Source: Prochlorococcus sp. AG-409-B05 (GTDB lineage Bacteria > Cyanobacteriota > Cyanobacteriia > PCC-6307 > Cyanobiaceae). Taken from it: 64,000 bases of DNA. The stretch lies in NCBI GenBank assembly GCA_003216075.1, contig QCJK01000001.1, positions 62,001 through 126,000 of the forward strand, written 5' to 3'. Below are positions 44,685-46,396 of this stretch, piece by piece (positions within the stretch are counted from its first letter, which is position 1; each line of letters begins with the position of its first letter). The position numbers and the translations under genes are program-made. A model generated the notes under the pieces. The model made no database searches. It was not told where the DNA came from and saw nothing but the letters and a program-made list of their open reading frames with translations.

Positions 44685-45848
44685 GTGAATATTCAGCTCG
44701 GTCGTTCCAAGACTGTTCGCCGGGCCTATGGCATCGACGAAATTGCTCTCGTGCCTTGCAGTCGAACTGTTGATCCCCAAGCAACTAATACGAACTGGAC
44801 CCTTGGGAGTTTCAATCGAGAAATTCCAATAATTGCCAGTGCAATGGATGGCGTTGTTGATGTTGATATGGCAATAGCGCTTTCAAAACTGGGTGCATTG
44901 GGTGTTCTTAACCTTGAAGGGATTCAAACTCGTTACGAAGATCCAAATCCCATCCTCGATCAAATATCAAAAGTTGAAAAAGATAACTTCGTTCCTCTTA
45001 TGCAAGAGATATACAGCAAGCCAATTAAAGAAGATCTAATCACCACACGAATTCAGGAAATCAAACGTGGAGGTGGAATCGCTGCAGTGAGTGCAACCCC
45101 TTTGGCTGCAATGAGATACATGCAAACCATTGCTGATGCGCAGGCCGACTTGTTCTTTGTTCAAGCAACTGTTGTTTCAACTGAACACATCACTGTTGAA
45201 GGTAGAGCAACACTTGATCTTCAAAACCTATGCAAAGACTTTGGAATACCTGTGGTGATTGGCAACTGCGTTACTTATGAAGTAGCTCTAAAACTCATGA
45301 GAGCTGGTGCCTCTGGGGTAATGGTTGGGATAGGCCCAGGAGCCGCCTGTACATCAAGAGGGGTATTAGGTGTTGGAATTCCTCAAGCAACAGCAATTTC
45401 AGACTGCGCAGCTGCTCGCAATGACTATGAGAAAGAAACTGGAAGGTATGTACCAATCATTGCAGATGGAGGAATCGTCACAGGTGGAGATATATGTAAG
45501 TGCGTAGCCTGCGGAGCTGATGCAGTAATGATTGGATCACCAATCGCAAAAGCTCAAGAAGCTCCTGGGAAAGGCTTCCATTGGGGTATGGCAACGCCTA
45601 GTCCAATACTTCCAAGAGGAACAAGAATTGAAGTGGGGAGTACAGGGAAATTAGAACGAATCCTTCGAGGACCCGCACTTTTAGATGATGGAACCCACAA
45701 TCTCTTAGGTGCTTTAAAAACTTCAATGGGAACTCTTGGAGTCAAAACGATCAAAGAGATGCAAGAAGTTGAAGTAGTAATTGCCCCATCTCTCTTGACT
45801 GAAGGGAAGGTCTACCAGAAAGCTCAACAGCTTGGGATGGGTAAATAA
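44685..45848 (+). CDS. guaB: GuaB3-type IMP dehydrogenase
   Basis: The 387-residue TIM barrel has no CBS domains, the GuaB3 layout found in cyanobacteria and actinobacteria. The phosphate-binding loop is near ADGGIVTGGDICK; the catalytic cysteine lies in GPGAACTSRG; N-terminal GIDEIALVPCSRT. It converts IMP to XMP for guanine nucleotide synthesis, or possibly another GuaB-type reaction. Start GTG 44685 (an ATG two bases earlier is in another frame). The Yfr1 RNA and trxA follow. Confidence 0.9.
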   Translation: MNIQLGRSKTVRRAYGIDEIALVPCSRTVDPQATNTNWTLGSFNREIPIIASAMDGVVDVDMAIALSKLGALGVLNLEGIQTRYEDPNPILDQISKVEKDNFVPLMQEIYSKPIKEDLITTRIQEIKRGGGIAAVSATPLAAMRYMQTIADAQADLFFVQATVVSTEHITVEGRATLDLQNLCKDFGIPVVIGNCVTYEVALKLMRAGASGVMVGIGPGAACTSRGVLGVGIPQATAISDCAAARNDYEKETGRYVPIIADGGIVTGGDICKCVACGADAVMIGSPIAKAQEAPGKGFHWGMATPSPILPRGTRIEVGSTGKLERILRGPALLDDGTHNLLGALKTSMGTLGVKTIKEMQEVEVVIAPSLLTEGKVYQKAQQLGMGK

Positions 45849-45869: not shown

Positions 45870-45899
45870 CCTTAATTCAATATCAAAGGGCGTTAGTAT
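45870..45899 (+). promoter_or_regulatory. Probable promoter of Yfr1
   Basis: TAGTAT at 45894-45899 matches a bacterial -10 box, with a weak TTAATT-like -35 about 17 bases upstream. Transcription would start near 45906, just before the first Yfr1 hairpin. The -10 is convincing by position; the -35 is weak. Confidence 0.5.
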
Positions 45900-45905
45900 C
45901 AATAC

Positions 45906-45966
45906 GTGAGGGCTTTTAAAGCCCACACACTCCTCACACCCCCGGCCCGATGCAATCGGGCTTTTT
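45906..45966 (+). ncRNA. yfr1: Yfr1 small regulatory RNA
   Basis: A 15-base palindromic 5' hairpin GGGCTTTTAAAGCCC (45910-45924) is followed by an unpaired CA/CT-rich stretch containing ACTCCTCACAC (45929-45939), the ultraconserved Yfr1 motif, and then the terminator hairpin. In marine cyanobacteria Yfr1 lies between guaB and trxA, exactly as here, and its single-stranded motif base-pairs with porin mRNAs (family knowledge). The ends are estimated from the -10 box and the terminator. Confidence 0.92.
45945..45966 (+). terminator. Intrinsic terminator of Yfr1
   Basis: GCCCGA (45945-45950) pairs with TCGGGC (45956-45961) around TGCAA and is followed by TTTTT, a textbook rho-independent terminator forming the 3' hairpin of the RNA. 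Confidence 0.9.
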
Positions 45967-46072
45967 GTATTACTCTTTACGCGACCGTCACAGTTCACAT
46001 AGCTGTTTTGACCAAAATCATTATTGATCAAAGACGGTTGCTAAATTCCTTCGATAAAGAGATGTTTTAAGT

Positions 46073-46396
46073 ATGTCAAGCGCTGCTGCAGTCACTGATT
46101 CTTCATTTGAGCAAGATGTCCTTCAGAGTGACATACCTGTACTGGTTGATTTCTGGGCTCCTTGGTGTGGACCATGTCGCATGGTCGCACCAATCGTTGA
46201 GGAGATCTCCAAAGAATTTGAAGGGAAGATCAGGGTCTTCAAGCTCAATACAGACGAGAATCCCAATGTTGCTAGTCAATACGGCATCAGGAGCATTCCA
46301 ACCTTGATGATCTTCAAAGGAGGGCAAAAAGTTGACACAGTAGTTGGAGCTGTTCCTAAAGCAACCCTTTCAGGAACAATCTCCAAATATCTCTAA
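46073..46396 (+). CDS. trxA: Thioredoxin (m-type)
   Basis: The 107-residue disulfide reductase carries the active site WCGPC (within [18 protein letters not shown]) near residues 31-35 and the cis-proline motif [11 protein letters not shown]. It is reduced by ferredoxin- or NADPH-thioredoxin reductase and regulates enzymes of photosynthetic carbon metabolism, including G6PDH/OpcA. ATG 46073 lies about 107 bases after the Yfr1 terminator. A strong hairpin follows at 46419-46454. Confidence 0.97.

Follow-up and report, generated by a model that had tools for sequence, protein, structure and literature searches.

Positions 45906-45966 (+) of the window, by which we mean the whole 64,000-nucleotide stretch of DNA analysed here, very probably constitute a functional Yfr1 gene whose RNA would repress porins, with Yfr2 serving as its sponge and Yfr10-like RNAs taking a share of the work. 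Yfr1 is a textbook RNA for this group, and the copy described here is an ordinary member of the known family in its usual place. Its lineage possesses the whole set, namely Yfr1, two intact Yfr10-like RNAs and four Yfr2. The presence of an intact Yfr1, of porin sites, of Yfr2 and of Yfr10-like partners in a deep low-light lineage informs on the state that preceded the loss of Yfr1 in the LLII/III group. The structure, the synteny, the complementarity and its conservation are observed here, and expression, repression and sponging are carried over from work on MED4 and in E. coli.

The Yfr1 gene between guaB and trxA

The segment had been read as Yfr1 in a first-pass annotation of the sequence, and the covariance-model search proposed there bears this reading out. 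The Rfam family RF01116 matches 45906-45964 (+) over the entire model, positions 1-59 of 59, and the score of 59.0 bits exceeds the cut-off of 38 by 21 bits (E 3.9e-9 in a search of the window). The only other Rfam match in the window is one tRNA, and the window copy is the single RF01116 match of its genome. By its anatomy the RNA gene (45906..45966, +) measures about 59-61 nt, within the 54-69 nt of the family, and it has two stem-loops, of which the second is a Rho-independent terminator, as well as a perfect unpaired undecanucleotide.

The predicted fold of 45906-45966 has an energy of -24.4 kcal/mol (z -4.35), and none of 200 shuffled sequences was equally stable. It consists of a 5' hairpin, GUG.A.GGGCUU-UUA-AAGCCC.A.CAC (45906..45928, +), the ultraconserved core ACUCCUCACAC (45929..45939, +), which is left unpaired, and a 3' hairpin with a U tract (45944..45966, +), for which the terminator scan reports a terminator-like site at 45944-45962 plus the T run. 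The two hairpins would keep the core single-stranded. The window contains a single copy of the core 11-mer, ACTCCTCACAC, where 0.01 copies are expected. The hairpins, the intact unpaired core and the U-tract terminator of the first-pass annotation are all recovered in this way, and the fold adds an A.A mismatch in hairpin 1 and the length of the linker between the hairpins. With the G-U pair that closes hairpin 2 formed, this linker counts 15 nt, and with that pair open it is longer; the unpaired section published for Yfr1 counts 16-20 nt (PMC2190773).

The sequence, the two hairpins, the unpaired core, the terminator and the order guaB-yfr1-trxA are common to the window and the family RF01116. 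The window copy differs by the mismatch in its first stem, which is found in many relatives as well, and by a first loop region that exceeds that of most relatives by about three bases. The synteny claimed beforehand is clear, with all three genes running in one direction: upstream lies guaB (IMP dehydrogenase, 387 aa; 44685..45848, +), an ORF with a relative 85% identical in G006, and downstream trxA (thioredoxin, 107 aa; 46073..46396, +), an ORF with a WCGPC site. The trxA gene starts 228 nt past the end of the guaB match, and most relatives are spaced similarly.

A -10 box, TAGTAT (45894..45899, +), can be read directly from the sequence 6 nt 5' of the inferred 5' end at 45906, as had been noted before. 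For lack of a -35 hexamer, no Yfr1 promoter was reported by the sigma-70 scan. Among 58 rows, with the window included and the high-light named loci lying outside them, 51 have a hexamer similar to the -10 box equally far from the core. By analogy with the known RNA, the gene would be transcribed from its own promoter into a short stable RNA ended by the intrinsic terminator.

Between Yfr1 and trxA, a block at 45984-46050 (CGTCACAGTTCACA ... GGTTGCTAAATT) is repeated in several low-light relatives and contains the inverted repeat ACCGTC (45984-45989) / GACGGT (46033-46038). It might represent the promoter of trxA together with its operator.

Conservation and natural losses of Yfr1

Under strict filters, with which weak matches are lost, RF01116 was matched in 336 of 400 genomes of the family and in 234 of the 251 better genomes. 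The exact core was found in 75 of 80 named guaB loci; two more carry a Yfr1 with a changed first core base and three are without it. In the guaB regions fetched for comparison, the core was present in 31 of 40 and absent from nine.

The Yfr1 alignment comprised 46 of 60 rows, after seven high-light rows, three LLI-like near-duplicates, L149, L164, L165 and L184 had been left out. Within the stems, 93.8% of cells hold standard pairs, a figure that describes intact copies since the decayed L164 is not among them. Both sides of a pair changed in 24 cells, compared with 9.7 in shuffles, and one pair of the 5' hairpin is G-C in 26 rows and A-U in 17 of the 46. Two other measures of covariation in these rows, the number of pairs changed on both sides and that of further pair types, were no higher than in shuffles.

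These data bear on two other explanations of the segment. An intrinsic terminator does end it downstream of guaB, and it could be conceived as the guaB terminator joined to part of the trxA leader, resembling Yfr1 by chance. Such a coincidence is very improbable in view of the covariance match along the whole model, which exceeds the cut-off by 21 bits, the 0.01 expected occurrences of the 11-mer in the window, the -10 box at a fixed distance in 51/58 rows and the covarying 5' hairpin. That the segment belongs to a small coding gene can be practically dismissed: an ORF at 45906-46070 (54 aa, GTG start) is indeed listed, but the same frame stays open for 54 codons in just 7 of 59 relatives, and the loop and linker lengths in the alignment differ by non-multiples of three.

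To place the Yfr1 copy of the window among its relatives, a tree was built from five neighbouring proteins in 62 of 74 rows, 12 near-duplicates being left out. The genome itself (1,797,579 bases, 52 contigs, completeness 91%) is the lone member of its genus in the comparison set. Its lineage falls outside a supported group (98/87) of high-light, LLI-like and Yfr1-less LLII/III-like clades, the strain and ecotype labels of these relatives being in part presumed. It is therefore a deep, little-known low-light branch of Prochlorococcus, separate from the clade without Yfr1. The Yfr1-less LLII/III-like rows form one clade of nine rows with support 100/97. This single clade agrees with the published loss, the absence of Yfr1 having been first reported in SS120 and MIT9211 (PMC2190773). 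The genus g9 is also without Yfr1, and in all three of its genomes 51-53 nt separate the end of the guaB match from the start of trxA. In G024 (L164), Yfr1 is decayed, scoring 17.9 bits against the cut-off of 38, and its fold (z +1.28) is no better than those of shuffles.

Loss of Yfr1 was also considered for L002 and L019 and rejected, as their segments score 51.4 and 58.0 bits, both above the cut-off. The four Yfr1 changes on the tree therefore overstate the losses, of which two remain, in the LLII/III-like clade and in genus g9. At L002:4222-4278 and L019:4212-4270, the first base of the 'ultraconserved' core is changed, to T and G, respectively.

Probable porin target sites of the core

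Complements of the core (GUGUGAGGAG, at most one mismatch) number 48 in the genome of the window, compared with 60 for a reversed control pattern; therefore complementarity alone does not define targets, and target finding by this means across the genome was abandoned. Position relative to genes is more telling. For the near-complements, i.e. sequences with up to one mismatch to GTGTGAGGAG, a start codon lies 2-16 nt downstream in nine of the 48 cases, seven of which are internal to long ORFs that reach 98-265 codons upstream. The two sites at true start codons belong to the two OprB/SLH porin genes, each with UUUUUGUGUGAGGAACUCAAUG, and count as one event since both genes share their leader and first residues. 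With the control pattern, a downstream start codon was found in one of 31 hits, and an ATG in none (30 of its 60 loci). The first-pass annotation had named porin mRNAs as targets and proposed a search for complements of the core; this search led, among true starts, to exactly the two porin genes, which supports the claim.

The Yfr1 linker is predicted to form duplexes of -18.2 and -16.0 kcal/mol with the two porin sites, matched by 0 and 3 of 500 shuffles, these sites overlapping the Shine-Dalgarno sequence, part of which would be conserved in any case. By its sequence, the core could pair with mRNAs carrying GUGUGAGGA over the Shine-Dalgarno region, the candidate targets in this genome being the two OprB/SLH porin genes. 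By analogy with MED4, such a duplex would keep ribosomes from entering and so reduce the synthesis of porin. Indeed, Yfr1 represses a fusion of the PMM1121 porin 5'UTR to GFP 4.7-fold in E. coli, and Yfr2 relieves this repression (PMC6778093).

A relative of the porin N-terminus was found in 36 of 40 genomes, and 77 porin leaders were read, excluding matches that lacked the N-terminus or lay at the end of a contig. In genomes with the yfr1 core, GUGUGAGGA is present at 42 of 56 porin genes (42 of 53 without those of G024), and in these 42 the position of GTGTGAGGA is just before the porin start. In the eight Yfr1-less LLII/III-like genomes, one of which, G016, was assigned by genus as its guaB was not found, 11 of 18 porins have the same 9-mer and the other seven have 7 or 8 of its bases. 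The three g9 porins all lack the full 9-mer and all have 8 of its 9 bases. The site is absent from all three porin leaders of G024 (L333, L334, L367). The idea that the porin site is lost once Yfr1 is lost is unsupported by the counts (11/18 vs 42/56; Fisher p 0.37). Since the sites persist without Yfr1, their maintenance does not require Yfr1 itself; in the genomes that lack it, they may be kept by Yfr10-like RNAs or serve another role.

The first Yfr1 targets were reportedly described by Richter in 2010. The ppa gene is a reported target in MED4. It was rejected as a target in the genome of the window, where none of three seed strings was found at the two pyrophosphatase loci.

Yfr2 and the Yfr10-like RNAs

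Yfr2 (Cyano-1, RF01701) is a partner RNA of a separate family, whose 5' part is complementary to the core of Yfr1, and it opposes Yfr1. Four copies were found in the genome of the window. Their predicted duplexes with the Yfr1 linker have energies of -22.1, -17.3, -16.5 and -12.6 kcal/mol, for which, in the same order, 4, 1, 6 and 159 of 500 shuffles were as good; the copy on contig C8 pairs with Yfr1 no better than many shuffles. As in MED4, Yfr2 could sponge Yfr1 through the GUGAGGAG-type sequence of its 5' part.

Elsewhere in the same genome, beyond the window, four copies of a repeated Yfr10-like element occur, each with the Yfr1 core inside a hairpin loop or close to one. Two of them are intact, at G000:C8:63728 (L452) and C33:8393 (L455), and two are decayed, at C32:4677 (L454) and C32:1457 (L453). 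Three of these elements precede a Yfr2 by 79-81 nt, forming tandem pairs. They share the core with Yfr10, Yfr12 and Yfr18 of MED4, for which the same tandem order with Yfr2 is known (PMC2518516); the arrangement is therefore an extension of a known order to another lineage, not a discovery. The core of Yfr10, Yfr12 and Yfr18 lies in a hairpin loop, whereas that of the window RNA lies between hairpins, which sets it apart from Yfr10. Across the genomes compared, a Yfr2 occurs within 700 nt downstream at 24 of 60 core loci, a comparison in which G092 and G085 had no Yfr2 search, and at none of the eight core loci of the Yfr1-less LLII/III-like genomes.

Occurrences of the core outside Yfr1 were filtered for a stem of at least 5 pairs and a terminator, and 47 of 79 passed, in 32 of 40 genomes. 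The 32 filtered-out loci include Yfr10-like elements whose terminator was missed (rows of G055 and G085), decayed copies and coding matches. At four loci (L407, L411, L413, L446), the 11-mer lies in a conserved coding stretch that presumably belongs to an EF-Tu-like gene. The core 11-mer alone is not specific, as these coding matches illustrate.

The low-light Yfr10-like sequences were aligned (39 sequences; eight high-light or LLI-like ones were left out). Pairs are formed in 99.8% of cells, and changes on both sides occur in 8 of 15 pairs. The cells changed on both sides number 43, compared with 8.6 in shuffles, and 0 of 500 shuffles reached as high, a figure that is no probability, as the sequences share ancestry. 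RNAalifold gives the identical structure, with two hairpins and the core in the first loop. Judged from the aligned sequences, the low-light Yfr10-like RNAs are one covarying two-hairpin family. In the loci scanned, the element is not covered by any Rfam 15 family. A model of it, R1, gives weak scores of 14-31 bits for the forms of high-light and LLI-like type; in the window it has no match, Yfr1 included. A 2019 paper describes the secondary structure of Yfr10 homologues as poorly conserved (PMC6778093). Against this statement, the alignment indicates that it is well conserved within the low-light type.

A Yfr10-like RNA is kept in seven of the eight Yfr1-less LLII/III-like genomes, the eighth, G032, being 53% complete. 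Neither an RF01701 match (under strict filters) nor a second exact core was found in G024. In g9, the core followed by a strong terminator was observed in all three genomes (L389, L390, L451), which have no Yfr1 at guaB-trxA; this RNA gave differing folds in the two tested, and it was left out of the family.

By analogy with MED4, the Yfr10-like RNAs, with the same core in a hairpin loop, would share part of the work on overlapping targets. It is also conceivable, though rather unlikely, that they are the main bearers of the core function at porins and that Yfr1 serves mainly other targets. The 18 porins of the eight genomes without Yfr1, 11 with the 9-mer and seven with 7-8 bases, the Yfr10-like RNA in seven of these genomes and the two intact copies in the genome of the window would all suit such a division. 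On the other hand, Yfr1 alone represses the MED4 porin reporter in E. coli, and the target sets of Yfr1 and Yfr10 are partly separate (PMC6778093).

On a broader view, to which we attach about even chances, the core UCCUCACAC would be a movable regulatory word set on interchangeable scaffolds. Low-light Prochlorococcus would carry it in the Yfr10-like family, often about 80 nt before Yfr2; after the losses of Yfr1, in the LLII/III-like clade and in g9, a second core RNA would have stayed, as would the porin sites; and where no intact core RNA was detected, in G024, the porin sites are absent. G024 fits a porin site kept by core-bearing RNAs, as one lineage with three related genes. It has been proposed that Yfr10 keeps SS120 viable without Yfr1 (PMC6778093), and the counts of porin sites over natural losses of Yfr1 make this published idea testable.
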